DNA of 32,138 nucleotides, from assembly GCA_020443325.1 (NCBI GenBank), contig JAGRIK010000159.1, positions 1 through 32,138 of the forward strand. Direction: 5' to 3'. The stretch is from Halioglobus sp. GTDB lineage: Bacteria; Pseudomonadota; Gammaproteobacteria; Pseudomonadales; Halieaceae. The notes under the pieces are model-generated. The model searched no databases. It was not told where the DNA came from and saw nothing but the letters and a program-made list of their open reading frames with translations. The position numbers were made by a program, and so were the translations under genes. Of the stretch, positions 15,812-32,138 are shown one piece after another (the stretch's first letter is position 1; the number at the start of each line of letters is the position of its first letter).

Positions 15812-16996
15812 TCAGCGATTGCGCCCGAGCCGCTCGTGCGCATCCACCCACTCGTTGGTGCGAGTCTCTTTGTCGATCTTGGCCGCTGCCCCCAGTGAAA
15901 GTTCGCCTGCAAGTGCCAGCGATGCGGCAATCTCTGCGAGCTTCATGACTTTGCCCGGGCCGAAGCAGTCCATAATCTGCAGGCACTCGCGTTGCGTTGG
16001 CAGGGCGGTGCCGCCGCCATAAGTGGCCAGAATCAGTGCCGGCAGGGTAATGGAAAAATAGTAATCCCCGTCCCGCGTTACCTTGTTATACGTGGTGCAC
16101 TGGTTGGACTCGCCGATGTTGGCGATATCCTGCCCGGTCGCCAGGTAGAGCGCAGCGAGCCCATTCGCGGGGTGAGCGGCATTGTTGGAGGAACTGGACA
16201 GGAAGGCACTCAGGGTGCTGATGCCCTGGCCATAATGCATCTGTTGCGGAGAGATACGCAGGTTCTTGATCATCACGTCGCGGGGGATGGTGATCTCGGC
16301 GGTGACGCGCCGGCCGCGCCCCTTGAGCATATTGACGGACGAGGTCTTTTTCTCCGTATCGAAATTACCCGACAGGAGGTAGTGGGAGATGCCCTTGAAC
16401 TCCTTGTTAATCCACTCGCAGGCAAAGAAGGTGGCCTTGCTCGTCATGTTCTGGCCGGCGGCGTCGCCAGTGCTGTAGTCGAAACGCGTGAAGACCATAT
16501 TATGCGCGTGGTAGTGCTCGATTTCATTCAGCTTGCCCACTGAGGTGGTGGACTCTGCAATTGCCTTGATGCGGTCGAAGTGTTCGTCCAGCCAGAGACC
16601 GAAATCCCGCGCTTCCCTGGCGCTGGGAAAAACAAACACGGGGGCCCGTTGCATCGCATCGCCGGAGACTGTGGTGATCACGCCGCCGCTCTCCCGGATG
16701 ACGCGCATGCCCCGGTTGTAGCTGGCCAGCATGGTACCCTCGACAGTGGCCATCGGCACATAGAATTCGCCCTTCGCGTGCTCACCGTTGATCAACAGCG
16801 GGCCTGCCAGGCCAATGGGCACCTGCGCCACCCCAAACAGATTCTCGATATTGCCCGACATCTCCGCCGGATCGAACGAGAACTGCTTTGTGTGATCCAG
16901 CTTTGCGGGGGTGTTCTGCTCGATAAACGCCTGGCGCTGGGCAATGATATCCAGGCTGTAATCGTCGTCGTTGGAGCGGGGAATTTTTTTACTCAC
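15812..16996 (-). CDS. Hydroxymethylglutaryl-CoA reductase, class-I-like
   Basis: Would reduce HMG-CoA to mevalonate with NADPH. All four catalytic residues of the class I enzyme can be placed: Glu86 in PMATVEGTMLAS, Lys187 in GQNMTSKATFF, Asp290 in ATGQDIANIG, and His387 in the C-terminal DAHERLGRN, which aligns with the class I SH...NR end. ENLFGVAQVPIGLAGPLLING (about 51-71, motif ENxxGxxxxPxGxAGPL), TGDAAGQNM and LAGELSLGAAA are also class-I-like. 394 residues, without membrane anchor. The start is GTG with GAGG 7 nt upstream. No other mevalonate-pathway gene is in the window, and gammaproteobacteria usually use the MEP route, so its role here is open. ArfB follows 22 nt downstream. Confidence 0.88.
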   Translation of the reverse strand: MSKKIPRSNDDDYSLDIIAQRQAFIEQNTPAKLDHTKQFSFDPAEMSGNIENLFGVAQVPIGLAGPLLINGEHAKGEFYVPMATVEGTMLASYNRGMRVIRESGGVITTVSGDAMQRAPVFVFPSAREARDFGLWLDEHFDRIKAIAESTTSVGKLNEIEHYHAHNMVFTRFDYSTGDAAGQNMTSKATFFACEWINKEFKGISHYLLSGNFDTEKKTSSVNMLKGRGRRVTAEITIPRDVMIKNLRISPQQMHYGQGISTLSAFLSSSSNNAAHPANGLAALYLATGQDIANIGESNQCTTYNKVTRDGDYYFSITLPALILATYGGGTALPTQRECLQIMDCFGPGKVMKLAEIAASLALAGELSLGAAAKIDKETRTNEWVDAHERLGRNR

Positions 16997-19008: not shown

Positions 19009-21327
19009 TCAGCGAGCGTTCAGCTGGGCAATCTGCTCCTTGAAATAGCCCGGCGCCAGCAGGGTTTTCAACTCCTCGAACGGCACGGGCTTGCTGAACA
19101 GGTAACCCTGGATAACACTCGCGCCATTGTTGCGCAGGAAGTGGTATTGCTCCTGCGTTTCCACACCCTCGGCCACCAGTTGTAAGCGCATGCTTCTCGC
19201 CATGGCGATGATGGCTATCACCAGGCTCGCATCGTTTTGGCTCTTGTCAAAATCGATGACGAAGCTGCGATCAATCTTCAGTTCGTCCAGTGGGAATCGG
19301 CTGAGATAGCTCAGGGAGGAGTAACCTGTACCAAAATCATCAATGGATAGCTGCACACCCTGATCCTTGAGGTCGGCAAGGGAGCGTGCCGTATCCTCAT
19401 GGTTATCCATCATAATGCCCTCGGTCAGTTCCAGTTGCAGGCGCCTTGGGCGCAGTCCGGTAGTCGCCAGAATGTCGGACACACGCGTGATGAAGCTCTG
19501 CGTGAACTGTAGCGCGGAGACGTTGACAGAAATTTTTGGCAGTTCCAGGCCCAGGGACTGAAGCTCGACCATCTGCCGGCAGGCCTCTTCCAGCCCCCAC
19601 TCGCCCAGTGCGCCGATCAGTCCCATTTCTTCCGCCAGGGGGATAAACTTGAAGGGCGGCACCATCCCCAGGGACTCATGCGGCCAGCGCATCAGGGCCT
19701 CGGCGCCGGTCACCGTGCCAGTCAGTGTGTCCACCTGGACCTGGTAATGTAGTGACAGGCCCTTGTTTTCAAGCGCTTTGCGCAGTTCGTTTTCCAGTTC
19801 GAGCCGTTCCACGCCGGCGGCATCCATGTCGGTCCGGTAGAACATATACTTGTTCTTGCCGGTGGACTTGGCGTGGTACATGGCCGTATCGGCTGCTTTG
19901 AGCAGATCCTCTACTGTCTCTGTATCCGCCTGCGCGATGGCAATGCCGATACTGGGGGTCACGACAAGGTCGTGTCCCTCGATCTTGATGGGTTGCGCGA
20001 GTATATCGAGCAGACGCTGCGCGACCATACCCGCGGAATCGGCACTATCGAGCTGATTGAGGACAACGGTAAATTCATCTCCGCCGAGTCGTGAGACATC
20101 GATTTGCGAGCTCGGCTCCACGTAGTGCGCGATAACGTCGCTGCCCCGGACACACCTGGCAAGCCGCTTTGCAACCTCGCGCAGCAATAAATCCCCGGAG
20201 CTGTGTCCCAGCGAGTCATTGATGCGCTTGAAATTGTCCAGATCGAGAAACAGCAGTGCCAGCATTTCCTTGTTGCGCTTTGCCAGCCGCAGCAGCAGGT
20301 CCAACTGTTCGGTAAACAGCCGGCGGTTGGGGAGCCCCGTAAGGCTGTCGTAATACGCCAGTTTGCGCAGGCGGTCCTTGGTTTCGGTGACCTGCTTTAC
20401 AGCCTCACTCAGTTCCTCATTCCGTTTGGATAATTGTGAGGTGCGCTCTTCCACTTTCATGCTCAACAGCTGGTGATCGACATCCATCCGGGTCTTGTAG
20501 GTGTTGAGCCCCTCGATGATGGTGTTGAGAAGGAGGACGACTTCCTTGAACTCGCCGCTGCTTTCGAGCCCGCGAGGCTGCACGGCGGTGCCCGACGAAA
20601 TATCGTCTGCCATCCGCTTGATCATGGAAAAGGGTGCGGTAATCCTGCGCGCCATATGCCTGCTGAAGATGCTGCACAGGAGGATGAATACCATTGCGAT
20701 TCCCATCACTGCCAGAATGGTGGGAAGTATTTGCTGTAATAACAGCGCGCGGCTGATCCCGATTTGCACATAACCGACCACATACAGGCTGCTGGCCGAG
20801 CGCGCACTTGCCAGCGCTGCCCCCAGCGCGTCGCGCCCTACATTCTGGTGGAGTGGGTTTAGCACCGATAGCACTGGAACCGTCAGGTCCCAGACGAGGT
20901 CGCCTCCAGGCAGATTCCAGGAACTTGTGGTATCTGCCATGGAAAAGCTGCCGCGGCGCGGTGTCAGGCTCGTCTCTACCACCGAGGTACTTCCGCGAAT
21001 AAGGTCAAATGGCGTGGATTCGTACTCCAGCGTGTCGGGCTGTTGTATGCGGTTTAGCTCAAGTCCATTCTGGTCGCGGGCAATGGCGTACAGGATCGTG
21101 GTTGAGGACTCAAGGATGTCCTGGAGCGTTGCCTGTAACTCGCTGGTATCTGCGAGGTATATCGCAACCTGCAACTGCGGTTGGCTTTGCACAAGGTTGA
21201 CAGATTGCTTGATGAGACGCTCTTTGGCAGAGGAGTATTCGAGCTGGAGCACGATGGCAGTGAGAATACAGCCTGCGGCAACCGCGATGGATATCACCAG
21301 GGCATTGATTTTGCCGGCAATCGTCAT
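19009..21327 (-). CDS. Membrane-bound GGDEF-EAL protein (c-di-GMP synthesis/degradation)
   Basis: A 772-residue signalling protein. Membrane helix 1 is at about 9-28, followed by a periplasmic sensor region of about 165 residues. Helix 2 is at about 199-221, then a HAMP-like segment (about 222-280) and a coiled linker (KVEERTSQLSKRNEELSEAVKQV). The GGDEF domain (about 325-500) has an intact GGDEF at 415-419, with DLDNFKRINDSLGH. The EAL domain (about 515-765) has EAL in GAEALMRW (about 543-545) and DDFGTGYSSLSYL (about 663-675), so both activities look possible. The usual RxxD inhibitory site just before GGDEF is displaced by about 12 inserted residues: RGSD is at 394-397 and SQID occupies the normal place. 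Located beside exopolysaccharide genes, consistent with c-di-GMP control of their products. Confidence 0.92.
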   Translation of the reverse strand: MTIAGKINALVISIAVAAGCILTAIVLQLEYSSAKERLIKQSVNLVQSQPQLQVAIYLADTSELQATLQDILESSTTILYAIARDQNGLELNRIQQPDTLEYESTPFDLIRGSTSVVETSLTPRRGSFSMADTTSSWNLPGGDLVWDLTVPVLSVLNPLHQNVGRDALGAALASARSASSLYVVGYVQIGISRALLLQQILPTILAVMGIAMVFILLCSIFSRHMARRITAPFSMIKRMADDISSGTAVQPRGLESSGEFKEVVLLLNTIIEGLNTYKTRMDVDHQLLSMKVEERTSQLSKRNEELSEAVKQVTETKDRLRKLAYYDSLTGLPNRRLFTEQLDLLLRLAKRNKEMLALLFLDLDNFKRINDSLGHSSGDLLLREVAKRLARCVRGSDVIAHYVEPSSQIDVSRLGGDEFTVVLNQLDSADSAGMVAQRLLDILAQPIKIEGHDLVVTPSIGIAIAQADTETVEDLLKAADTAMYHAKSTGKNKYMFYRTDMDAAGVERLELENELRKALENKGLSLHYQVQVDTLTGTVTGAEALMRWPHESLGMVPPFKFIPLAEEMGLIGALGEWGLEEACRQMVELQSLGLELPKISVNVSALQFTQSFITRVSDILATTGLRPRRLQLELTEGIMMDNHEDTARSLADLKDQGVQLSIDDFGTGYSSLSYLSRFPLDELKIDRSFVIDFDKSQNDASLVIAIIAMARSMRLQLVAEGVETQEQYHFLRNNGASVIQGYLFSKPVPFEELKTLLAPGYFKEQIAQLNAR

Positions 21328-21573: not shown

Positions 21574-21843
21574 TCAGTTTGTCATCCGCCTGTCGGGAAG
21601 GATACGCCGGTCGTTGGCGATCAGGATACTGTTGACGGTAAGGGGAAATGTTACCGGCCTGCCGCTGCGCCGGTCGCCGGGCTTGCGTGCAACCTGTTCG
21701 CGAGGTTGCTTGTCGGCTGAACTTCGCCTGAGTTGCTCATGGTCATCGGAGACATAGGTTCGGGCTGCCACGGTAAACACATAGGTGGATACCACGACGG
21801 CACCCAAACCCGATAGTCCGAGGATGATCAGTATCACATCCAT
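21574..21843 (-). CDS. Small membrane protein of unknown function
   Basis: I do not recognise a family for this 89-residue protein. Residues 1-27 are a membrane helix (MDVILIILGLSGLGAVVVST, continuing YVFTVAA). The rest is a charged, Arg-rich cytoplasmic-type tail with three DRR repeats: GDRRSGRP, NDRRIL and PDRR-MTN. The reading frame shows normal third-position GC and the helix-plus-basic-tail layout looks designed rather than random. AGAGGA lies upstream at about 12 nt, a loose spacing. It sits 205 nt downstream of the sugar transferase and upstream of the GGDEF-EAL gene, all on the same strand. It could be a small regulator of the polysaccharide machinery, but that is only position-based. 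Confidence 0.6.
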   Translation of the reverse strand: MDVILIILGLSGLGAVVVSTYVFTVAARTYVSDDHEQLRRSSADKQPREQVARKPGDRRSGRPVTFPLTVNSILIANDRRILPDRRMTN

Positions 21844-22048: not shown

Positions 22049-23461
22049 CTAGCGGGCGCCTTTCCCGAATAGAACGACCTCGACTGTGCTGAGTGTGACC
22101 ATCAAATCGAGGAACAAACTCTGGTTTTTCACATAGTACAGATCAAATTGCAGTTTCTGCCTGGCATCGTTTTCCGATGCGCCATAGGGATAACACAGTT
22201 GTGCCCAGCCGGTGATGCCGGGCTTTACCGCATGGCGGGAGTTGTAGTATGGGATTTGTTCCGCCAACTGCTTTACGAACTCGGGACGCTCCGGGCGGGG
22301 GCCGATAAACGCCATCTCCCCGGACAGTACATTGAATATCTGCGGAAGTTCGTCGATACGGGTGCGGCGGATAAACGCCCCCACCTTGGTGACCCGGCTG
22401 TCATTCAGGGTGGCCCAACGCGCTTTGCCATCCCCTTCGGCGTCGATACTCATGCTCCTGAACTTGAGGACCTGGAAGGCTTTGCCATTGAGACCTACTC
22501 GCTGCTGGCTAAAAAAGATCGGCGCTTTAAAACCGTCTTCCATCCAGATGGCCAGAGCTGTCAGTAGCATGATCGGCCAGGTAGACATCAGCAGTATAAA
22601 GCTCGCAAAAATATCGAAACTGCGCTTCGTTATGCTGCTGGGCGCGCTGCTGCGCAGGTCTTCGGTGAGCGTCATCCACCCCGGGGTGGCAAAGTCCACC
22701 AGTATTTTGCCCGCTTCCCGTTCAAAAAAGTTCACCAGGTTCATGACTTTAATGCCCTGCAGGCGACATTTGAACAACTCATCGGTGGGCGTCTGGTCGC
22801 GTTTGTTGTCCAGTGCAACGACAATCTGGTCAATCTCGGTCTGTTTGGCGTACTCAGCCAGTGGTTGGCGCAGGTTGATCACCCGTTCTCCGGACACTTT
22901 GGGATCTTCGTCGTCTACCCTGACAAACCCTACGATGGTGAACCCCTGTCGATCCGTTTTGCGTCGCATGGCGCTGGTGATCGTAGCGGCGGCAGAGCCG
23001 GAGCCGTAGACCAGCACCCGGCTTTTGAACTGTTCCAGGTCTGTCAGGTTGATGAATACGATGCGGCTGATCAGGTTGGCACTAAAGGACAAGAGCACCG
23101 CGTATAATAGTATGCTGCGCCATTGCTGGACATCCGGGAGGAGCATAAAGACGCCGGCGGTGAGCAGGCTGGCCGTCGTAAACCCACCCAGGGTTCGCAC
23201 CAACACGCCCGATCTGCCCTCGCGCATGCGCGGTTCATAGAGCCCCATCGCAAACAGGCAAATCACTGCAATCGCCGAGTAGATCAGCGCGCGGTTGGGA
23301 ATCTCGGGAATCATGGCCTGGAAGCTGCCGGGGTGAAGGGCGACAAGACTGTGGATGTAAGCGCCGGCATACAAAGCCATAACGAAAAGCGCCGCGTCTA
23401 CCAGGGCTAGCCAGTAAAACGATGTATGAACATGGTGGTTGAATACTCTGACCGTAGCCAT
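22049..23461 (-). CDS. Undecaprenyl-phosphate sugar phosphotransferase, PEP-CTERM/XrtA-associated (TIGR03013-like)
   Basis: Starts exopolysaccharide repeat-unit synthesis by moving a sugar-phosphate from a nucleotide sugar to undecaprenyl phosphate in the inner membrane. 470 residues. The N-terminus has four to five hydrophobic helices (about 15-135). A nucleotide-binding-like region follows (VLVYGSGSAAATIT, then FTIVGFVRVDDE). The C-terminal bacterial sugar transferase domain (about 275-470) has KRSFDIFASFILL, VLKFRSMSIDAEG, RIDELPQIFNVLSGEMAFIGPRPERPEF and KPGITGWAQLCYPYGAS. The ending YYVKNQSLFLDLMVTLSTVEVVLFGKGAR is the style of the PEP-CTERM/XrtA-system transferases rather than of WcaJ. 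AAGGA is about 7-8 nt before the ATG. The next gene upstream on this strand is the decarboxylase, 414 nt away. Confidence 0.93.
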   Translation of the reverse strand: MATVRVFNHHVHTSFYWLALVDAALFVMALYAGAYIHSLVALHPGSFQAMIPEIPNRALIYSAIAVICLFAMGLYEPRMREGRSGVLVRTLGGFTTASLLTAGVFMLLPDVQQWRSILLYAVLLSFSANLISRIVFINLTDLEQFKSRVLVYGSGSAAATITSAMRRKTDRQGFTIVGFVRVDDEDPKVSGERVINLRQPLAEYAKQTEIDQIVVALDNKRDQTPTDELFKCRLQGIKVMNLVNFFEREAGKILVDFATPGWMTLTEDLRSSAPSSITKRSFDIFASFILLMSTWPIMLLTALAIWMEDGFKAPIFFSQQRVGLNGKAFQVLKFRSMSIDAEGDGKARWATLNDSRVTKVGAFIRRTRIDELPQIFNVLSGEMAFIGPRPERPEFVKQLAEQIPYYNSRHAVKPGITGWAQLCYPYGASENDARQKLQFDLYYVKNQSLFLDLMVTLSTVEVVLFGKGAR

Positions 23462-23875: not shown

Positions 23876-25126
23876 CTAGACCAGGATTTCCCCGGGGTGT
23901 GGGTGACCCAGAAAATTGACTGGGCTGGCGGTAAGACCGTACGCGCCCGACTGGAATACGACCACCAGGTCGCCCACCTCAGCCACAGGCAGGCTGACCC
24001 GGCTTCCCAGGATATCCAGTGGTGTGCACAGGGGGCCAACCACGTTCACCAGCTCGAGCGTATCGCCTGATACCCGGTTTCCCAGGCACAGGGGATAGTT
24101 CTTGCGGATGACCTGTCCGAAGTTGCCGGAGGCGGCGAGGTGGTGGTGCAAGCCGCCATTGGTGACTAGGAAGGTTTCCCCGCGCGAGACTTTTTTATCC
24201 ACAACCTCACAGACATAGATTCCGGCTTCCGCCGTGAGGTAACGGCCGAGTTCGAGTACGATTTCCACGCCAGGCAACTGTTGTGCAGCTTTTCGGGCCA
24301 GGCCTGCCAGATTGCTGGCAATGGGCGACAGGTCCAGGTGCTGCTCACCGGGAAAGTAGGGTACACCCAGCCCGCCACCGATGTTCAGCCAGCGTACCGG
24401 GGAGGGGGCGGACTGGCTGAGGCGGAAGGCGAGTTCGAAGGTCTTTGTTTGCGACTCGATGATGGCCTGGGGACGCAGGTTTTGAGAACCGCTGAAAATG
24501 TGGAACCCCATAAACTCCAGAGGCAGGGATGACATCGCCTCCAGCATGGCGGGCACCTGCTCCGCATCCACACCAAAAGGCTTGGGACCGCTGCCCATTT
24601 TCATGCCCGCTGACTTGAGTTCAAAGTCAGGATTGACTCGAATAGCCACTCTGGGGCGGATGCCGGTGCTTTCGGCCAGTGCCGCGATACGCTGCATCTC
24701 TCCCGCAGACTCCATATTGATAATTACACCGCTGGCTACCGCCGCGTCGAGGTCTTCTGCGGACTTGCCCGGCCCCGCGAAGCTGATACTGCCTGGCGCT
24801 ATGCCGGTTGCCAGCGCGAGGCGCAGTTCGTTTGCAGAGGCGACGTCCAGCCCGTCGGTCATCGCGGCCAGGTGGTTAACCACCTCTGGCATAGGGTTCG
24901 CCTTCACGGCATAGTGCAGGTGAACGCCGGGGGGAAGGGCGTCACGCAGAGTTTTGACCCGGTCGTTCATCACCTGGCGGTCATAGGCGTAGAAAGGTGT
25001 TTTTCCAACGGCTCTGGCCAGATCGGGAAGAGACTGCCCGCCGATCTGCAGGCAGTTACCTGCCACCGCAAATTGGTTCATCTTCGCGTGCTGTGGCGCG
25101 TCGGTGGAGCCCTGGGTATGACTCAT
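23876..25126 (-). CDS. PLP-dependent decarboxylase, exosortase A system-associated (TIGR03099-like)
   Basis: A fold-type III PLP enzyme related to diaminopimelate and ornithine decarboxylases. 416 residues. The Schiff-base Lys is in HYAVKANPMPEVV (Lys about 75). GGGLGVPYFPGEQHLDL binds the PLP phosphate region, and ELGRYLTAEAGIYVCEVVDKK and GPLCTPLDILG supply the partner-subunit active-site residues. The ending NFLGHPHPGEILV is the style of the exosortase-A-associated subfamily. Its start overlaps the stop of the acyl-CoA ligase by 4 nt (ATGA), so the two are translationally coupled. In exosortase A loci this pair is thought to help make a lipid- or sugar-linked component of the exopolysaccharide system; the true substrate is unknown. 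Confidence 0.92.
   Translation of the reverse strand: MSHTQGSTDAPQHAKMNQFAVAGNCLQIGGQSLPDLARAVGKTPFYAYDRQVMNDRVKTLRDALPPGVHLHYAVKANPMPEVVNHLAAMTDGLDVASANELRLALATGIAPGSISFAGPGKSAEDLDAAVASGVIINMESAGEMQRIAALAESTGIRPRVAIRVNPDFELKSAGMKMGSGPKPFGVDAEQVPAMLEAMSSLPLEFMGFHIFSGSQNLRPQAIIESQTKTFELAFRLSQSAPSPVRWLNIGGGLGVPYFPGEQHLDLSPIASNLAGLARKAAQQLPGVEIVLELGRYLTAEAGIYVCEVVDKKVSRGETFLVTNGGLHHHLAASGNFGQVIRKNYPLCLGNRVSGDTLELVNVVGPLCTPLDILGSRVSLPVAEVGDLVVVFQSGAYGLTASPVNFLGHPHPGEILV
24195..24203 (+). other. Consensus DnaA-box match inside the decarboxylase gene
   Basis: TTATCCACA, a perfect match, about 560 nt from the intergenic pair. It is inside coding sequence, over the codons for VDKK, so it could be coincidental. 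Confidence 0.3.
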
Positions 25127-26727
25127 GCCGGCGCTACCTGGAAGGTGTCCTTGTACTCCTCGAGGAGCAGGCGCCGGTCGATTTTGCCATTCTGGTTGAG
25201 CGGGAGAACGCTGCGCACGACGATTATGCTCGGTACCATAAAATTGGGTAGTTCACGGCGGCAGTGCGCGAAGACAGCCTCCTCAAGATCCTTGCCGGCC
25301 GTGCTTTCTGCCCCGGGTGTCACCAGCAGCAGGATGGCCTGTCCCAACCCTGCATGCGGCAGGCCAACCGCAGCCGCGGCGGCAACAAGGCCAGAGGCAT
25401 AGGCGCTTTCCTCCACCTCGGTCGGGCTTACCCGGTAACCGGAGGTTTTAATCATTTCATCCTTGCGGCTGATGAAGTACAGATACCCTTCCTCGTCTTT
25501 CATGACTTGATCACCTGACCAGACCGCCAGTTCAGTATTGGGTATTTGCGGTGGCTGCACGGGACAGGGTTTGAAGCGCTCAGCCGTTTTTTCCGGATCG
25601 TTCCAGTATCCCAGGCTCACCAGCGCGCCGCGATGGACCAGTTCACCGGGTTCGCGCGGCGCGCACTCCCGACCGTCCTCATTTATTACCAGGATTTCTG
25701 CATTGGGTATGGCTTTGCCCATTGAATCCGGCCGCACGTTGACCTGGTCGGGCGGCAGGAAGGTCGAGCGGAACGACTCGGTGAGGCCGTACATCAGGAA
25801 AATAAGGGTATGCGGCAGCGTTCGCTGTAGCGCGTGGGTGGTGGAAACCGGCATGGCGCCACCCGTATTCGTAATATAACGCAGCGACTGCACTGCCTCA
25901 GGTGGCCATTCGAGGTCCTTCAACTGGTTCCAGAGTGGAGGTACTGCCGCCAGGCCGGTTATGCCGTAGCGCACGACTGCCCGGATGACATCGCGCGGCA
26001 GGAGGTAGTCCATCAGGACAACAGAGGCGCCGACGGTAAAAGCGGTGGTGAGCTGGCTGAGGCCGGCGTCAAAGCTCAGGGGCAAGACCGCCAGTATGCG
26101 GTCATCCGCCACATTGCCCAGATAGCTGGCGACACTGCATGCACCAGCCACCATATTGCGGTGGGACAACACCACGCCCTTGGGGTTGCCCGTGCTGCCA
26201 GAAGTATAAAGGATGGCCGTCATATCGGTATCGATGCGGCGGTGAGGCTGGCACGGGGCAGTCGCTGAACCACAGAACGCCTCGTAAGTGAGCAGCGTTT
26301 GCGGGATGTCCGGCACACTGTCCGGCAGTCGTTCATCCACCACCACGATCGTCTGCAAATCCGGGCAGGTCCCCACGACCTCGGAGAGTAATTCCAGGCG
26401 CGTGATCGAGGTGATCAGTACCTTCACATTGCAGTGCGGCAGGATGTGCGCCAGTTGGCGAGGTTTCAGCAGCGGGTTTATAGGCACAAAGCACGCCCCG
26501 GCCGCTGCGGCGCCAAACAGGCCGAATACCACTTCAGGCTGCTTGGGGAGATAAATCGCTACCCGTTCCCCCGGCCCAATTCCCAAACCCAGCAGTGCAT
26601 TGGCACAGGCCTCCACCTGATGTTGCAATTGGGCATAACTAAAGCACTTTTCTTTGTACAGCAGTGCGGGCGCATCGGGCGAGGCCTGCGCACTTTGGGA
26701 GATACACTCGTGAATCAGGTCTGGCAT
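25123..26727 (-). CDS. Acyl-CoA ligase (AMP-forming), exosortase A system-associated (TIGR03098-like)
   Basis: An ANL-superfamily enzyme of 534 residues that activates a carboxylic acid as acyl-AMP. The AMP-binding P-loop is TAILYTSGSTGNPKG (about 170-184). A second core motif is YGLTESFRSTFLPP. The C-terminal hinge is YFISRKDEMIKTSGYRVSPTEVEE, and the catalytic Lys is in NQNGKIDRRLL (about 518). Whether the acyl group goes to CoA or to a carrier protein cannot be told, and no acyl carrier protein gene is nearby. It overlaps the decarboxylase start by 4 nt and is first in this two-gene operon. No clear Shine-Dalgarno precedes the ATG. It diverges from the protease gene across about 140 nt. 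Confidence 0.93.
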   Translation of the reverse strand: MPDLIHECISQSAQASPDAPALLYKEKCFSYAQLQHQVEACANALLGLGIGPGERVAIYLPKQPEVVFGLFGAAAAGACFVPINPLLKPRQLAHILPHCNVKVLITSITRLELLSEVVGTCPDLQTIVVVDERLPDSVPDIPQTLLTYEAFCGSATAPCQPHRRIDTDMTAILYTSGSTGNPKGVVLSHRNMVAGACSVASYLGNVADDRILAVLPLSFDAGLSQLTTAFTVGASVVLMDYLLPRDVIRAVVRYGITGLAAVPPLWNQLKDLEWPPEAVQSLRYITNTGGAMPVSTTHALQRTLPHTLIFLMYGLTESFRSTFLPPDQVNVRPDSMGKAIPNAEILVINEDGRECAPREPGELVHRGALVSLGYWNDPEKTAERFKPCPVQPPQIPNTELAVWSGDQVMKDEEGYLYFISRKDEMIKTSGYRVSPTEVEESAYASGLVAAAAAVGLPHAGLGQAILLLVTPGAESTAGKDLEEAVFAHCRRELPNFMVPSIIVVRSVLPLNQNGKIDRRLLLEEYKDTFQVAPA

Positions 26728-26865
26728 CGTGATGAGGCTAATCGGTTGCGGTTCGTGGGTGGAAGGGTGGTATTGTAGCCCAAATCATTGCTGGCTCCGC
26801 ATAGATTGTGCGATGAATACGGGATGGGGACAATGAGGACAATGACGAACTGTGAGCAATTGCAC

Positions 26866-27660
26866 ATGAAGGTCCATTTAGCGTTTCTTCGAGTGAGCGC
26901 GATGATCTGCCTGATGATCGCGCCGTCGGCCTGGTCTGCCAGCCTGCCGGATCTCATAGATAAAATCAGGCCCGGCGTGGTCGGGGTGGGCACGGCGTAC
27001 CCACCACGGCAGCCGAATGTCAAAGGCGAGCGCGTGGTCTACCTCGCGACGGGTTTCGTGGTGGGCGATGGGCGACATATCGTTACCAATGCGCACGTCA
27101 CCGGTTTGGACCTGGATTCGGATAACAACCAGACGCTGGCGGTATTCACCGGTCGCGGGGTGAACGCCACTGCACACCCGGCGCAGGTAGTGCGTGAGGA
27201 TAAAGAGCACGACCTCGTACTCCTTGAGATCCAGGGGTCGCGCTTACCGGCATTGCAACTGGGGAATTCTGACGCGGTGCGGGAGGGGCAGGATATCGCG
27301 TTCACCGGGTTTCCGCTTGGGATGGCGCTGGGGCTTTATCCGGTGACACATCGCGGTATGGTTGCTGCCATCACACCCGCAGCACAGCCCTCGGCAGACT
27401 CGGATAAGTTGAACTCAGTGAAAATCGCGCGCATGCGGGCCGGGTTTGATGCGTTTCAGCTCGATGCCACGGCTTACCCCGGGAACAGTGGCAGTCCGGT
27501 GTTCGAACTGGGCAGCGGGCGGGTGATAGGGGTAATAAACAGCGTCCTGGTGAAGGAGACGAAGGAGACAATGCTGGCCAGGCCATCCGGCATTACCTAT
27601 GCAATTCCCTCCAGATATATTAAACCCCTGCTTTCCGGCCTGGAGACGGCCCGCCCCTGA
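26866..27660 (+). CDS. Secreted trypsin-like serine protease (S1 family), no PDZ domain
   Basis: A predicted periplasmic serine endopeptidase of about 264 residues. The triad is visible: His in VTNAHVTG (about 77), Asp in EHDLVLLEI (about 116) and Ser in AYPGNSGSPVF (about 208). A signal peptide covers about 1-25 with a likely cut after SAWSA. Unlike DegP/HtrA it stops after the protease domain. I placed the start at 26866 (MKVHLAF) because the signal peptide begins there. ATGs at 26833 and 26842 with G-rich upstream sequence are possible and would lengthen the n-region by 8-11 residues. The gene stands between the exosortase-associated ligase/decarboxylase pair and the phosphatase/acyltransferase operon, so envelope or matrix protein processing is a fair guess. 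Confidence 0.87.
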   Translation: MKVHLAFLRVSAMICLMIAPSAWSASLPDLIDKIRPGVVGVGTAYPPRQPNVKGERVVYLATGFVVGDGRHIVTNAHVTGLDLDSDNNQTLAVFTGRGVNATAHPAQVVREDKEHDLVLLEIQGSRLPALQLGNSDAVREGQDIAFTGFPLGMALGLYPVTHRGMVAAITPAAQPSADSDKLNSVKIARMRAGFDAFQLDATAYPGNSGSPVFELGSGRVIGVINSVLVKETKETMLARPSGITYAIPSRYIKPLLSGLETARP

Positions 27661-27704: not shown

Positions 27705-27825
27705 GACGTAAACCCTGGGTTATTACCGCATTATTGCGAGGCCTCCTGGCTGCGCTACGGATTGAATGTCTGGTAGCATGTGCGGCGAACTCGTGCGGCA
27801 ATCCGCTTCGCGGTCCGCTCCCCCC

Positions 27826-27830
27826 GGAGG
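27826..27830 (+). promoter_or_regulatory. Ribosome binding site for the TTG start of the phosphatase
   Basis: GGAGG is 7 nt before the TTG at 27838. The in-frame ATG at 27778 and the start at 27766 have no such site and would add residues with no family similarity. Confidence 0.65.
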
Positions 27831-27837
27831 CTTTTGC

Positions 27838-28329
27838 TTGACCCTGTTTCAGCGCAAGACCCGCATTTTGTTGGTCTGTACGGAGAATATTTGTCGATCG
27901 CCCATGGCTGAAGGATTGCTTCGCCATCATCTACAGCAATCCGGGCTGCGTAGCAGGGTGGAAGTGAGTTCGGCGGGCACCCGAAGTTCGCTCCCCGGCT
28001 GCCGGCCCGATCAGCGCGCACAAAAAGTTGCCGCAGCGCGGGGTATTGATCTCACCGGAATCAAGGCGCGCCGGGTGACTGAGCGCGATTTGGAGCGCAG
28101 CGATTTTGTGTTCGCCATGGATGAAGCGAATATGCGGGATTTGCGGGAACTGTGTCCCGTCGAACAACACGACAAGCTCTCGTTTCTACTCAGTCACCAG
28201 GCCGGACAGTCGCTGGTCGAGGTTCCCGACCCCTATTTCGGCAGCGCCGAGGGTTTCGAGCGGGTTTTTCAAATCATTGACGATGCAATGGGCGGCCTGA
28301 TTTCCTATATTCAGGGCAGGATCGAGTGA
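27838..28329 (+). CDS. Low-molecular-weight protein tyrosine phosphatase (Wzb-like)
   Basis: A cytoplasmic phosphatase of about 163 residues, the usual size. The active-site loop is CTENICRS (Cys14 to Arg20, CX5R), and the general acid Asp131 is in VPDPYFGSAEGF. Homologues beside polysaccharide genes dephosphorylate a BY-kinase (Wzc type) controlling export; no such kinase is in the window. The start is TTG, selected by a GGAGG 7 nt upstream and by the conserved beginning KTRILLVCTENICRSPMAEGLL. It follows the protease after a candidate terminator and precedes the acyltransferase by 100 nt, so it may open the rightward operon. Confidence 0.9.
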   Translation: MTLFQRKTRILLVCTENICRSPMAEGLLRHHLQQSGLRSRVEVSSAGTRSSLPGCRPDQRAQKVAAARGIDLTGIKARRVTERDLERSDFVFAMDEANMRDLRELCPVEQHDKLSFLLSHQAGQSLVEVPDPYFGSAEGFERVFQIIDDAMGGLISYIQGRIE

Positions 28330-28429
28330 GCAGCGACTTTACTCAATATCGGCTTGGCGCTACTGTGCAGGTTACAGAGGCGTGTACAGCAAACGACAGT
28401 CGCTTTGCGCGGACACGCGGGTGAGTATT

Positions 28430-29194
28430 ATGGAGAATACGAGGGTGTCGCTGGTCGAGGATTTTCAACGGTATTTCAGTATCGAGCAGGTGACCACTCC
28501 TGCACAGTTGGAGAGCGTATACCGGGTACGGTACAGGGTGTACTGCGAAGAGTTCCACTATGAACCCACCGATGCCTGCCCGAATCAGCTGGAGACAGAC
28601 GAATTCGACGTCCACGCCGTGCATAGCCTCGTGGTTCACAGGGCCTCGGGTATGCCCGCCGGGTGTGCAAGACTGGTCCAGGCCGATGAGCAGCGGTTGA
28701 TGCCCATGGAGAAGTTTTGTTCTGCGGCGATTGACCAGGACATCCTGCGGTCATTCGATGGCCGGCGGGATACGGTTTGCGAATTTTCCAGGCTGGGAGT
28801 CGATGGCGCCTTCCGCCGCAGGCCCGGTGAGCACGAATCGCGGTTCGGGGAAATTTCCGCACTGGAATTGTGTAGTCGAGAGCAGCGTACCTTCCCACTG
28901 GTTGCGATGGCAACAATCCTTTCAGCGCTCGCCCTGAGTGAAGTGATAGGCCGGCCCAACTGCTTTGCGATGATGGAGCCCTTTCTCCCTCGCCTGCTGC
29001 GGCGATCCGGACTTCTGGCGCGTCCCGCCGGCGACCAGATCGAATACCACGGTACTCGGTCGCCATTTTATTGGGAGACGCGCGAGGGAGTCAGTACTCT
29101 GGGGGATGAGTTCAGGGAGTTCTACGATACGATTCTCGCCGATTTTACCGGGTCGACTTCGTCCGGTCAGCGCAGTGCGATTGTGAGCCCCTGA
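28430..29194 (+). CDS. PEP-CTERM/exosortase system-associated acyltransferase (LuxI/GNAT-like)
   Basis: An N-acyltransferase of about 254 residues, resembling the exosortase-associated family TIGR03694 and more broadly autoinducer synthases and FeeM-type N-acyl amino acid synthases. The LuxI-like signature is readable: RVRYRVYCEEFHYEP (about 32-46) then ETDEFDVHAVHSLV (about 55-68), corresponding to the conserved R..V....W and E.D..D of LuxI. A later VCEFSRLGVDGAFRR resembles the E-SR segment that binds the acyl donor. It probably joins an acyl chain from acyl-ACP or acyl-CoA to an amine. The ATG at 28430 is preferred over an upstream GTG (28382), which is only 1 nt from its AGAGG. It abuts the ThiF-nitroreductase gene with no gap. 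Confidence 0.87.
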   Translation: MENTRVSLVEDFQRYFSIEQVTTPAQLESVYRVRYRVYCEEFHYEPTDACPNQLETDEFDVHAVHSLVVHRASGMPAGCARLVQADEQRLMPMEKFCSAAIDQDILRSFDGRRDTVCEFSRLGVDGAFRRRPGEHESRFGEISALELCSREQRTFPLVAMATILSALALSEVIGRPNCFAMMEPFLPRLLRRSGLLARPAGDQIEYHGTRSPFYWETREGVSTLGDEFREFYDTILADFTGSTSSGQRSAIVSP

Positions 29195-31159
29195 ATGTCC
29201 TTTGATTACCACGAGGCGTTTTCCCGCAACCTGGGGTGGGTGACTGAGACGGAGCAGGAAGTCCTGCGCAATAAGCGCATTGCTATCGCGGGTATGGGAG
29301 GCGTTGGCGGCAGTCACCTGCTGACCCTGACGCGACTCGGCATTGGGAAGTTCAGCCTCGCTGATTTTGACCAGTTTGAACTTGCCAATTTCAATCGCCA
29401 GGCAGGGGCCAGCACCGCCCACCTGGGGAGAAACAAACTCGAGGTGATGGTGGAGATGGCCCGTGGGGTCAACCCGGGCCTGGAGATCGAGCAGTTTCCG
29501 GCTGGAGTAGACGCCGGGAACCTGGATGCTTTTTTGGCAGGAGTCGACCTCTATGTGGATTCCCTCGATTTTTTTGCCCTCGATATTCGCCGGGCGGTAT
29601 TCGCCGCCTGCTATGCAAAGGGAATTCCCGCTATCACTGCTGCACCTCTGGGGATGGGGGCCGCGTTACTGTGTTTCTTCCCCGGGCAAATGAGTTTTGA
29701 AAATTATTTCCTGCTGGAAGGCCAGCCACGGGAGGAGCAGGCCCTGCGATTTATGCTGGGCCTGGCACCCAATCCCCAGCAACTGGCTTATCTGGCGGAC
29801 GACAGCAGGGTCGACCTGGCGGCTGGAAAAGGCCCCTCAACGCCGATGGCCTGTGAACTCTGCGCGGGGTTTGCGGGGACTTACGCGCTGAAAATCCTGC
29901 TCGCCCGGGGCCGTGTGCCGGCGGCGCCGCGGGGCATACACTTTGATGCCTACCGCAACCGACTGGTCACCACATGGCGCCCGTGGGGCAACGCCAACCC
30001 TATCCAGCGGCTCGGACTGAAAATCGCGCGCAAGCGGATCAGGTCAGGCCTGCGTGGTGCCGAGGTGGACGGCAAGCTGCGCACGCGGCCGATTGAACGA
30101 ATTCTGGATCTCGCGCGCTGGGCGCCCAGCGGTGACAATGAGCAGCCCTGGCGTTTTGAGATTGTCGATGACCACCATGTGGTGATTCATGGGCGTGATA
30201 CCCGGGATTGGTGTGTTTACGATCTCGACGGTACCTCCAGCCAGATTGCGCTGGGCGCACTGCTCGAAACCCTGCGAATTGCCGCATCTGCGGAGGGTCT
30301 GCGAGCGGAGCCTTTGCTGCGTCCGGACTCCCCGGAAGATGCGCCGCGGATCGATGTCAGGTTGATCCCGGACGCCACTGTGTTGCCCGATACCCTGGCG
30401 CCCTTTATCACCTCAAGAGCCACGCAGCGCAAGCCGTTTTCCACAAGATCGTTGACCGACCACCAGCAGCAGGTGCTCGAGCAAGCGGTGGGAGAGGGAT
30501 TCAGCGTGCGCTGGATCGACGGTGCTGCGGGTCGCCGCAAGATGGCAAGGCTGCTCTTTCACAACGCCCATATTCGCCTCTCGACGCCAGAGGCCTACGA
30601 GGTCCATCGACAAAACATTGAGTGGGGTGTGCAGTTCAGCGAACGGCAAATCCCTGAAGGTGCGCTGGGCCTGGACTTGCCAACACGCAAGATCATGCGC
30701 TGGGCACTGAAAAGCTGGGGACGCGTGCGCTTCCTGAACCGTTTTCTTGCCGGGACCTGGTTGCCCCGGCTGCAGATGGATTGGCGCACCGCACTGGGTT
30801 GTGCGGCGCACTTCGTCATTGTCGCCGATAAGCCCCTGATAACCGTTGAGGATTATTTGGCTGGCGGAGGCGCTGTGCAGCGTTTTTGGCTGGAAGCCAC
30901 CCGGCTGGGGTTGCAGTTGCAACCGGAAATGACCCCGCTTATTTTTTCCCGTTATGTGGCGCAGTCACGAACATTCACCTCGGTCGCTGCGGAGCAGTCG
31001 CTGGCCGGGAAACTGGCTGGTGAGTTGGATAACCTGGCCGGCGCCGCAGGGGATTATCGCCAGCGGGTCTATATGGGAAGGATCGGCTTCGGCCCAGCGC
31101 CCCAATCCCGCTCGGTGCGCCCACCACTGGAAACCCTGCTCGTCGACGCGCCGGGCTGA
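29195..31159 (+). CDS. ThiF/E1-like adenylyltransferase fused to a nitroreductase-family domain
   Basis: A 654-residue two-domain protein. Residues 1-270 are an E1/MoeB/ThiF-like adenylating domain: GMGGVGG (33-39) binds ATP, DFDQFELANFNRQ (57-69) has the conserved Asp, Asn and Arg, and Lys81 follows in GRNKLEV. VDSLDFFALD (121-130) matches the MoeB DCTDN region. There is one CxxC (about 220-223) and no second CxxC, so the usual zinc site is incomplete. Residues about 298-640 are an FMN-dependent nitroreductase-like domain: RWAPSGDNEQPWRF (308-321), then LDGTSSQIALGALLETLRIAA, and LEATRLGLQLQPEMTPLIFSR. The start codon directly follows the acyltransferase stop, and the glycosyltransferase follows after 4 nt, so all three are one operon. 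No ubiquitin-like or sulphur-carrier protein is nearby; the substrate is unknown. Confidence 0.9.
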   Translation: MSFDYHEAFSRNLGWVTETEQEVLRNKRIAIAGMGGVGGSHLLTLTRLGIGKFSLADFDQFELANFNRQAGASTAHLGRNKLEVMVEMARGVNPGLEIEQFPAGVDAGNLDAFLAGVDLYVDSLDFFALDIRRAVFAACYAKGIPAITAAPLGMGAALLCFFPGQMSFENYFLLEGQPREEQALRFMLGLAPNPQQLAYLADDSRVDLAAGKGPSTPMACELCAGFAGTYALKILLARGRVPAAPRGIHFDAYRNRLVTTWRPWGNANPIQRLGLKIARKRIRSGLRGAEVDGKLRTRPIERILDLARWAPSGDNEQPWRFEIVDDHHVVIHGRDTRDWCVYDLDGTSSQIALGALLETLRIAASAEGLRAEPLLRPDSPEDAPRIDVRLIPDATVLPDTLAPFITSRATQRKPFSTRSLTDHQQQVLEQAVGEGFSVRWIDGAAGRRKMARLLFHNAHIRLSTPEAYEVHRQNIEWGVQFSERQIPEGALGLDLPTRKIMRWALKSWGRVRFLNRFLAGTWLPRLQMDWRTALGCAAHFVIVADKPLITVEDYLAGGGAVQRFWLEATRLGLQLQPEMTPLIFSRYVAQSRTFTSVAAEQSLAGKLAGELDNLAGAAGDYRQRVYMGRIGFGPAPQSRSVRPPLETLLVDAPG

Positions 31160-31163
31160 TCGC

Positions 31164-32138
31164 ATGGTTGCGCCTGCACCGGGTTCGCGCAGGATACGCA
31201 TCCTGTTTATCGCTGAGGCGGTGACACTCGCGCATGTAGCACGGCCTGTTACGCTTGCCCGCTCGCTGGATCCGGAGCAATTCGAGGTGCATCTGGCGCA
31301 CCATCCGCGTTACCGGGAACTGATGGGTGAACTTGCCCTCGTAGAGCACGAGATTCATTCAATCACCCCGCAACAATTCATGCAGGCCCTGGCATCCGGC
31401 CGCCCTGTTTACGACCTGCAAACGCTGAGAGATTACGTCGAGGAAGATCGCAGGCTCATCGCTGAAGTGCAGCCGGATATCATCGTGGGTGATTTCAGGC
31501 TTTCCCTGGCGGTGAGCGCGGAACTCGCAGCGGTGCCCTATGTCGCGCTGAGCAATGCCTACTGGTCGCCCTTTAGTAAGCAGGGTTATAGAGTTCCCGA
31601 ATTGCCGCTGACAAAAGTGCTCGGGAGCACCCTCGGCCAGTGGGTATTCTCCCTCGGGCGGCCAATTGCCTTTGCGTTGCACTGTCTGCCGATGCATCGC
31701 CTGCGGCGCGACTATGGCCTGCCAAGCCTGGGGTTCAACCTGCGGCGGGTCTATACACACGCCGACTACACGCTGTACGCCGATGTCCCCGGGCTCTACC
31801 GTATTCAAAGTATGCCATCGCACCACCGTTTTATCGGTCCTGTTGTCTGGTCACCCGCCGACCCTCACCCGGACTGGTGGCAGGATATTCCACAGGATTC
31901 CCCCATCGTGTACCTGACGCTGGGCAGTTCGGGTAACGCCAGCCTGCTGCCCCGATTGATCGCCGCGCTGGGTGAGGTCAATGTCACTGCACTGGTGTCC
32001 ACTGCCGGCACTCCACTGCCCGGGCGTGTGCCTGCCAACGTCTACCTGGCGCACTATTTGCCTGGAGAGGAGGCGGTTAAACTGGCCAGCCTGGTGATTT
32101 GCAATGGCGGCAGTCCCGGTACGCACCAGGCGCTGAAG
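31164..32138 (+). CDS. UGT/MGT-type glycosyltransferase (family 1-like), 3' end outside window
   Basis: An open frame of 325 codons without stop to the right edge. The N-terminus RRIRILFIAEAVTLAHVARPVTLARSL is the acceptor-domain start of UGT-like enzymes, with the His of LAHVARP at the usual catalytic-His place. AEVQPDIIVGDFRLSLAVSAELAAVPYVALSNAYW follows the usual 'pDlvi.D' pattern. The donor half begins at IVYLTLGSSGNASLLPRL, and LASLVICNGGSPGTHQAL is the sugar-nucleotide-binding signature with NGG in place of the common HGG. The last tenth or so of the protein is missing. It starts 4 nt after the ThiF-nitroreductase stop and is presumably cotranslated. It likely transfers a sugar onto a lipophilic small molecule. 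Confidence 0.9.
   Translation, partial: MVAPAPGSRRIRILFIAEAVTLAHVARPVTLARSLDPEQFEVHLAHHPRYRELMGELALVEHEIHSITPQQFMQALASGRPVYDLQTLRDYVEEDRRLIAEVQPDIIVGDFRLSLAVSAELAAVPYVALSNAYWSPFSKQGYRVPELPLTKVLGSTLGQWVFSLGRPIAFALHCLPMHRLRRDYGLPSLGFNLRRVYTHADYTLYADVPGLYRIQSMPSHHRFIGPVVWSPADPHPDWWQDIPQDSPIVYLTLGSSGNASLLPRLIAALGEVNVTALVSTAGTPLPGRVPANVYLAHYLPGEEAVKLASLVICNGGSPGTHQALK

Follow-up and report, generated by a model that had tools for sequence, protein, structure and literature searches.

Acyl-oxazolone synthases have been characterised in several bacteria (what we say of published work refers, here and throughout, to the accessible parts of the papers). In Pseudoalteromonas rubra, OxzA and OxzB, the latter a fusion of a ThiF and a nitroreductase domain, give rise to N-acyl tyrazolones and phenazolones (PMC10404671, PMC12856293), and in mycobacteria TyzACB and TrzAS lead to N-acyl tyrazolones and tryptazolones (PMC12856293). 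In such synthases, the ThiF domain closes the ring of an N-acyl amino acid, and the nitroreductase domain acts as a desaturase that depends on O2 (PMC10404671, PMC12856293). For TrzS, a fusion of ThiF with a flavin-dependent oxidase (FDO), ATP-dependent cyclisation comes first and O2-dependent desaturation second, and the oxazolone ring is opened by acid and alcohols (PMC12856293). The tryptazolone authors describe the physiological role of oxazolones as a major unresolved question (PMC12856293). Here we analysed a 32,138-base stretch of DNA from Halioglobus sp. (GenBank assembly GCA_020443325.1, contig JAGRIK010000159.1; the window, in what follows), at whose right end a trio of genes encodes an N-acyltransferase (NAT), a ThiF-nitroreductase fusion and a glycosyltransferase (GT). 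Judged by predicted domains and conserved residues, NAT and fusion share the architecture of the characterised acyl-oxazolone synthases OxzAB, TyzACB and TrzAS, and we consider it probable that the operon, in which a GT is added to the oxazolone route, leads to an exported, glycosylated oxazolone-pathway lipid. The NAT/ThiF/nitroreductase route itself is known; here it is extended by a GT that recurs elsewhere and, among relatives, also by acyltransferase and exporter genes.

The P. rubra system resembles the trio in that a NAT gene is combined with a single ThiF-nitroreductase fusion gene in a proteobacterium, but unlike the trio it comes with no mention of a GT, an exporter or an acyltransferase besides OxzA in the accessible text (PMC10404671, PMC12856293). 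The fusion of P. luteoviolacea (L168) is 49% identical to that of the window and has no GT in the 21.9 kb of sequence available. In TrzA-TrzS (Rv1356c-Rv1355c), which makes N-acyl tryptazolone, a NAT likewise lies upstream of a ThiF-FDO fusion with an Acg-like FDO. TyzACB and the thalassotalic acid, kyonggic acid and stieleriacine clusters group the NAT, ThiF and nitroreductase functions as the window does, but, unlike the window fusion, keep ThiF and nitroreductase in separate genes; the tailoring discussed for TyzACB and thalassotalic-type clusters is methylation. In the accessible text of three papers on oxazolones and N-acyl tyrosine (PMC10404671, PMC12856293, PMC12479983), we found no mention of glycosylation, exosortase, glycosyltransferase or RND transporter. 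No title in the literature searched, which did not extend to subscription literature such as the OxzAB paper, names a glycosylated oxazolone, and the only match there to ThiF and exosortase together concerns, in its accessible part, IHF in Geobacter. The GT extends the pathways as published in the accessible literature, and we make no claim that it has never been noted before.

A candidate acyl-oxazolone synthase pair followed by a glycosyltransferase

The initial annotation of the window, made from the sequence alone, had described three enzymes on the plus strand with gaps of 0 and 4 nucleotides (nt), and open reading frames were indeed found at these places:

28430..29194, plus strand: NAT of the TIGR03694 / PF13444 / FeeM-like type, from profile matches
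29195..31159, plus strand: ThiF (E1-like) cyclase fused to a nitroreductase-superfamily flavin-dependent oxidase, 654 amino acids (aa), from profiles and a structural model
31164..32138, plus strand: GT-B glycosyltransferase of natural-product (CalG1/EryCIII/UGT-like) type, from motifs, an orthologue and the fold of an orthologue

The NAT starts with an ATG at 28430 (a GTG at 28382 is a possible alternative), and its stop codon, a TGA ending at 29194, is directly followed by the ATG of the fusion. The GT begins with an ATG at 31164 and its frame is still open at 32138, where the contig end cuts it after 325 aa. The window is an entire contig (G000:C86, 32,138 bases, from a 4.7-Mb, 90% complete assembly), which leaves the GT truncated and hides whatever may lie downstream. 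The initial annotation had rightly called the GT UGT-like but overlooked the truncation. Judged by the fusion protein, the closest named relative is Halioglobus japonicus BC5_1 (L099), with 89% identity, which points to a Halieaceae-like gammaproteobacterium as host.

The NAT matched the exosortase-associated acyltransferase family TIGR03694, to which it had been likened before, with 189.7 bits over a cut-off of 111.95, PF13444 with 60.3 bits and the FeeM family PF21926 with 30.2 bits (cut-off 27). A LuxI-type signal synthase proper was rejected, as PF00765 reached only 19.3 bits, below its cut-off of 24. Both the NAT family and the exosortase link are common to the trio and to the XrtA/PEP-CTERM-associated N-acyl amino acid synthases (TIGR03694), which are reportedly the subject of a paper by Craig et al. 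(2011) known to us by its title.

The fusion is laid out as a ThiF domain (residues ~1-285), a linker (~286-295) and a nitroreductase domain (~296-650), in line with the adenylating plus flavin-type enzyme proposed initially. Pfam ThiF matched residues 10-261 with 137.6 bits, and Pfam Nitroreductase gave a short match of 30.7 bits (cut-off 23.5) with its best stretch at residues 300-327; the protein also passes the PRK08223 model (424.7 bits, cut-off 266). Its ATP-site residues align with those of MoeB/ThiF (GMGGVGG 33-39, D57, N67-R68-Q69, K81 and D125), and the glycines, D57, N67-R68-Q69, K81 and D125 are invariant across 19 fusions. D125, which aligns with the MoeB/ThiF aspartate and is invariant in both a 10- and the 19-sequence alignment, is the counterpart of TrzS D217 by way of ThiF, no TrzS sequence being in the alignment. 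The predicted structure has a predicted local distance difference test (pLDDT) score of 84.8 and a predicted template modelling (pTM) score of 0.57, and the packing of the two domains is therefore uncertain. Its first half matches ThiF 1zud (TM to target 0.79-0.80) and its second half matches Acg 2ymv (TM to target 0.71), the latter also supported by sequence comparison. This same structure, 2ymv, is reported as the nearest solved homologue of the TrzS FDO (PMC12856293). With an adjoining NAT, the ATP residues of ThiF and an Acg-type FDO, the sequence and fold features looked for in an acyl-oxazolone synthase pair of the OxzAB/TrzAS type were found. Ubiquitin-like conjugation was rejected as a role: no Ubl, E2 or JAB-like family was found among the window genes scanned, and the kin of the fusion are ThiF-FDO enzymes. 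The fold search with the ThiF half (29195-30050) also matched 9egb, the substrate-containing structure of a ThiF-fold enzyme, AclA of Tenacibaculum discolor. Four loci from other genera of the family (L030, L031, L033 and L034) have a separate nitroreductase-like gene divergent from the ThiF gene, confirmed by family search in L030, indicating that the fusion is not required.

Homology with the characterised enzymes and the conserved residues make the first three steps of the following route very likely. The NAT would attach a fatty acyl group to the amine of a probably aromatic amino acid; the ThiF domain would then activate the carboxylate of this N-acyl product by adenylation and close the oxazolone ring; and the nitroreductase-type flavin domain would desaturate the alpha-beta bond with the use of O2. 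The first product of the trio is likely an N-acyl oxazolone or an N-acyl-dehydroamino acid. The initial annotation had read the genes as a biosynthetic operon for acylation, carboxylate activation, redox tailoring and glycosylation, in this order. The operon stands, but that NAT, ThiF and nitroreductase form an already characterised system had escaped it. As for the order, cyclisation before desaturation is known in TrzS (PMC12856293), whereas the timing of glycosylation is something we infer.

The truncated window GT had no Pfam match and scored 32.1 bits against TIGR01426 (cut-off 260). A full-length orthologue in L021 matched EryCIII-like_C (PF06722) with 61.7 bits over a cut-off of 31.7 and again stayed below that of TIGR01426 (67.8 bits), and macrolide GT was consequently rejected as a family label. 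The window copy retains the motifs EAVTLAH, DFR, GSSG and NGGS, of which E-A/S/C-V-T/S-L-A-H, D-F-R and N-G-G-S make up the family signature, and is 82% identical to the full-length GT of L099. In the L099 protein, H23 and NGGS are invariant and D337 and Q338 near-invariant; the window copy has the histidine and NGGS, its C-terminus being missing. We take the histidine to belong to the catalytic side and the other motif to the donor side. By fold and motifs of the L099 orthologue, the GT belongs to the GT-B natural-product/UGT superfamily. The model of this orthologue (pLDDT 90.3) matches elaiophylin GT, CalG1, OleI, YojK and UGT202A2, and the best 50 of 517 fold matches (E ≤ 0.001) are all, as we read them, small-molecule GTs, antibiotic-tailoring GTs and UGTs included. 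No polysaccharide GT is among these best 50, and such an identity was rejected. With small-molecule GTs as its kin, a small lipid is favoured over a polysaccharide as the acceptor.

Linkage of the glycosyltransferase to the fusion gene

To follow the three genes beyond the window, we used a family sample of 140 genomes and a class sample of 369 genomes. In the family, the two-domain fusion is present in 11 of the 140 genomes (in G118, next to a contig end, only as its C-terminal portion), and 8 further genomes match in the ThiF part alone. A GT orthologue was found in 9 of the 11 fusion genomes versus none of the 129 others (Fisher p 1.3e-12, relatedness ignored). Across the class, ThiF or the fusion occurs in 40/369 genomes and the GT in 10/369, nine of the latter with ThiF (p 8e-9, relatedness ignored). 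The GT tracks ThiF (9/10) more closely than it does the TIGR03694 NAT (7/10), and NAT genomes without ThiF carry it in only 1/17 cases.

The gene order is conserved as well. The NAT lies directly upstream of the fusion in all nine family loci with readable upstream DNA (L036, which has none, was left out of this count), and 30 of the 40 ThiF-bearing class genomes carry TIGR03694 over its cut-off. The GT directly follows the fusion on the same strand in 7/10 family loci (8/11 including the window) with gaps of -17 to +6 nt, values that depend on the start codon chosen by a simple gene caller, which missed the GT of L192, found otherwise. The initial annotation had reasoned that the functional link would be weak if the genes were rarely neighbours or occurred independently elsewhere; the counts for NAT upstream and GT downstream instead bear out their neighbourhood.

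Further loci were examined in a set of 80 named fusion loci, the best 80 of 540 candidates and thus biased to fused proteins and close relatives, 47 of which have full flanks. A GT homologue, defined as a hit of at least 200 bits to a custom hidden Markov model (HMM), lies in the available flanks of 26/80 loci, in 17/47 of those with full flanks, and in 21/75 once the close kin of the window (L099-L103) are removed. A 4-nt overlap of the GT start with the fusion stop was seen in Marinobacterium sedimentorum (L127) and in three Ectothiorhodospira (L136, L140 and L143), reading TTGA in L136 and ATGA in the other three. On a ThiF tree of full-flank loci (40 of the 47 yielded a ThiF domain; 14 of these 40 rows have the GT), the GT label changes 8 times, at least 4 of the changes being forced by well supported branches. 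We relied on this tree. A larger one, whose 77 rows comprised the window, four family loci and 72 of the 80 named loci, required 15 changes, at least 12 of them forced, but it scored short-flank loci as lacking the GT, so some of its absences are unseen DNA.

At least four forced label changes argue that the linkage of GT and fusion is not one inherited accident. They also bear on whether the gene order is a coincidence of tight packing at the exosortase locus, which is described below. Many window genes are closely packed, as such a coincidence would have it, yet this explanation is contradicted by the fusion-GT order in 8/11 family cases and by the GT in 26/80 named loci, and we regard it as highly improbable. 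The arrangement is not due to chance, since the order is repeated in relatives and in distant taxa.

In the glycolipid route, the GT-B enzyme would add a sugar to the N-acyl oxazolone or to the ring-opened N-acyl-dehydroamino acid, the simplest guess for the site being a tyrosine phenol, i.e. the phenolic oxygen of dehydrotyrosine. The linkage and the kin of the GT make its action on this substrate reasonably likely.

Acyltransferase and exporter genes in relatives

Further genes recur beside the cluster in relatives; they are invisible from the window alone and were not part of the initial annotation. A hexapeptide-repeat acyltransferase is encoded in 13/26 GT loci versus 0/54 loci without GT among the 80 named loci. 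In 8 of the 13 copies, MRKIT at or near the start is followed by a hydrophobic stretch that resembles a membrane anchor by eye only. A LolA-like periplasmic protein lies beside the cluster in 21/80 loci and a barrel protein related to DUF1302 in 17/80. The barrel proteins of Halieaceae and Marinobacterium had no Pfam match, and their link to DUF1302 comes from homology to the L129 protein. The LolA-like gene is joined by at least one LolCDE-like ABC gene in 12/80 loci and by an HAE3-like RND pump in 7/80. In Marinobacterium L127, the RND, LolA, barrel, fusion, GT, PrsT and hexapeptide genes are all on one strand. That two unrelated inner-membrane motors occur with the same periplasmic and outer-membrane parts suggests a lipid cargo bound for the outer membrane. 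PF17131 is so common (at least 176/369 class genomes) that it allows no co-occurrence test, and only nearness to the fusion may be informative.

Similar components are known elsewhere. AmeABCD of Castellaniella comprises an HAE3 RND pump, a LolA-superfamily protein and a DUF1302 barrel (PMC6394551), the same component types as in relatives of the cluster. Unlike the cluster, it is tied to monoterpene metabolism, and no ThiF-NAT pair is mentioned in the accessible text (PMC6394551). In Mycobacterium, mmpL9 flanks the tyz genes (PMC10404671).

In relatives, the hexapeptide acyltransferase would then probably acylate the sugar, and the LolA-like carrier, together with the barrel and either the HAE3-like RND or the LolCDE-like ABC system, would take the lipid to the outer membrane. 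Linkage in relatives suggests these two steps, which we put forward tentatively. Together, oxazolone genes, a recurrent GT and lipid-export genes in relatives suggest a new kind of surface glycolipid. If this is true, many Gamma- and Betaproteobacteria would pass through the oxazolone on the way to a glycolipid that is exported to the cell surface, an idea that can be tested.

In L129 (13506-14489, minus strand), a LolD-like ATPase with an N-terminal FHA domain lies by two LolC/E-like permeases and a LolA-like protein, and this system is possibly a phospho-regulated lipid exporter.

Exosortase context and competing readings

Upstream of the trio, the window carries genes associated with the exosortase A (XrtA) system:

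22049..23461, minus strand: XrtA/PEP-CTERM sugar-phosphate transferase EpsB_2 (TIGR03013, 538.8 bits, cut-off 393.35)
23876..25126, minus strand: pyridoxal phosphate-dependent decarboxylase, exosortase A system-associated (TIGR03099, 605.9 bits, cut-off 478.45)
25123..26727, minus strand: acyl-CoA ligase, exosortase A system-associated (TIGR03098, 753.1 bits, cut-off 592.35)
26788..27660, plus strand: trypsin-like serine protease (Trypsin_2, 96.6 bits), also upstream in several genus relatives
27766..28329, plus strand: low-molecular-weight protein tyrosine phosphatase (LMWPc, 133.1 bits), upstream of the NAT, also in several genus relatives

Exosortase A of the same genome is encoded on another contig (G000:C106, TIGR03109, 343.7 bits) and, with TIGR03098, TIGR03099 and TIGR03013 in the window, identifies an XrtA/PEP-CTERM locus. 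In the family sample, XrtA exceeds its cut-off in 33/140 genomes overall and in 16/19 of those that carry ThiF or the fusion (p 1.7e-9), G118, G042 and G021 being the three without it; in G128, G126, G122 and G012, xrtA lies ~11 to 37 kb off on the same contig. The tie to an exosortase locus proposed in the initial annotation is thus upheld. Given exosortase A in 16/19 of these genomes, the trio may help to identify the attachment target or the partner of the XrtA/PEP-CTERM system.

This context gives rise to the main rival reading, in which NAT and fusion together yield a free oxazolone, like their Pseudoalteromonas counterparts, and the GT acts on another product of the exosortase locus, be it exopolysaccharide, a PEP-CTERM glycoprotein or another lipid. 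In six of the eight loci L190-L197 (L190, L191, L193, L195, L196 and L197), the GT does occur with PrsT or PEP-CTERM-like genes and no fusion, and two counts given below, the GT-bearing genome G425 and the ThiF genomes without GT, also fit this reading. Against it stand the closer tracking of ThiF than of the NAT by the GT, the 4-nt stop/start overlaps of GT and fusion in distant taxa, and the small-molecule GTs that are the listed fold kin. On balance we consider it rather unlikely, if the most serious of the alternatives.

Several observations weigh against the glycolipid route or parts of it. The fusion occurs without a GT in G125 and G042. Of the 40 ThiF-bearing class genomes, 31 lack the GT at the threshold used, indicating that glycosylation is optional. 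Conversely, G425, with three GT matches and a NAT, lacks a ThiF of the oxazolone type (best score 72.9 bits; the assembly is 85% complete), which indicates that the GT can serve something else. In 6/9 class genomes with both genes, GT and fusion or ThiF are on different contigs (G416, G209, G220, G339, G449 and G453); in G416, the contig with GT, hexapeptide transferase and barrel is not the one that carries the fusion. The thresholds of the locus HMMs were self-chosen and the models built partly from counted loci (L127, L129, L140 and window kin). With regard to the fusion, it scored 189.1 bits on the Rv1355c-family model (NCBIfam PRK07877 equivalog), below the cut-off of 476, and 426.1 bits on the PRK14851 subfamily, below 1170. 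By the first of these scores it differs from TrzA-TrzS and ranks as a relative of the Rv1355c family, not a member of that equivalog. A hexapeptide gene without a GT in the locus lies near ThiF in L095, one of 20 further loci (L079-L098). For the exporters, the RND pumps reached 85.3 (a partial protein) and 138.8 bits against TIGR00921 (HAE3; cut-off 351.9), the LolD-like protein 229.7 bits (cut-off 307.75) and the LolCE-like proteins 104.5 and 122.5 bits (cut-off 362.45); as these are below the NCBIfam cut-offs, we name them HAE3-like and LolCDE-like. In the assembly of the window organism, a DNA search with the L021 downstream stretch found nothing but the GT, and PF17131 was without a match, so the acyltransferase and exporter part is read across from relatives. 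Finally, gene order, domain content, active-site residues and recurrent linkage are seen in the sequence itself, from which substrate, sugar donor and product cannot be read, and it is from linkage that we infer the last steps.

Two further readings concern what becomes of the oxazolone. The fusion product might be a transient acyl donor, an electrophilic oxazolone that acylates the amine of a protein or aminolipid, with the GT modifying the conjugate. Acid and alcohols do open oxazolones (PMC12856293), and the nearby decarboxylase and acyl-CoA ligase could supply an amine-bearing lipid. The known pathways, however, end in the oxazolone itself, no acceptor was identified and the sequence demands none, which leaves this reading improbable. 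The other would have the cluster build the surface acceptor of the exosortase A system, a glycosylated, acylated N-acyl-dehydroamino-acid lipid delivered by the LolA-like route, at which PEP-CTERM proteins are joined or organised. To our knowledge, no surface acceptor of the exosortase A system has been established. Such an acceptor would account for the company of NAT, fusion, GT, PrsT, PEP-CTERM genes and a lipid exporter, but we give this extension of the glycolipid route little credence at present.

Of the three GT matches of G425 (L190, L195 and L198), two lie near PEP-CTERM-like genes and one beside a hexapeptide transferase. Rfam and tRNA scans of the window were empty. An 89-aa protein (21574-21843, minus strand) beside EpsB_2 had no Pfam or NCBIfam match at the thresholds used and has relatives in L021, L028 and L032. 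The window also encodes an HMG-CoA reductase (15812-16996, minus strand; PF00368, 382.1 bits), here in a gammaproteobacterium. In Mycobacterium, c-di-GMP genes adjoin trzAS (PMC12856293); the window has a GGDEF-EAL protein (19009-21327, minus strand) ~7 kb from the trio, and related EAL/GGDEF genes are near the fusion in L024, L027 and L028.

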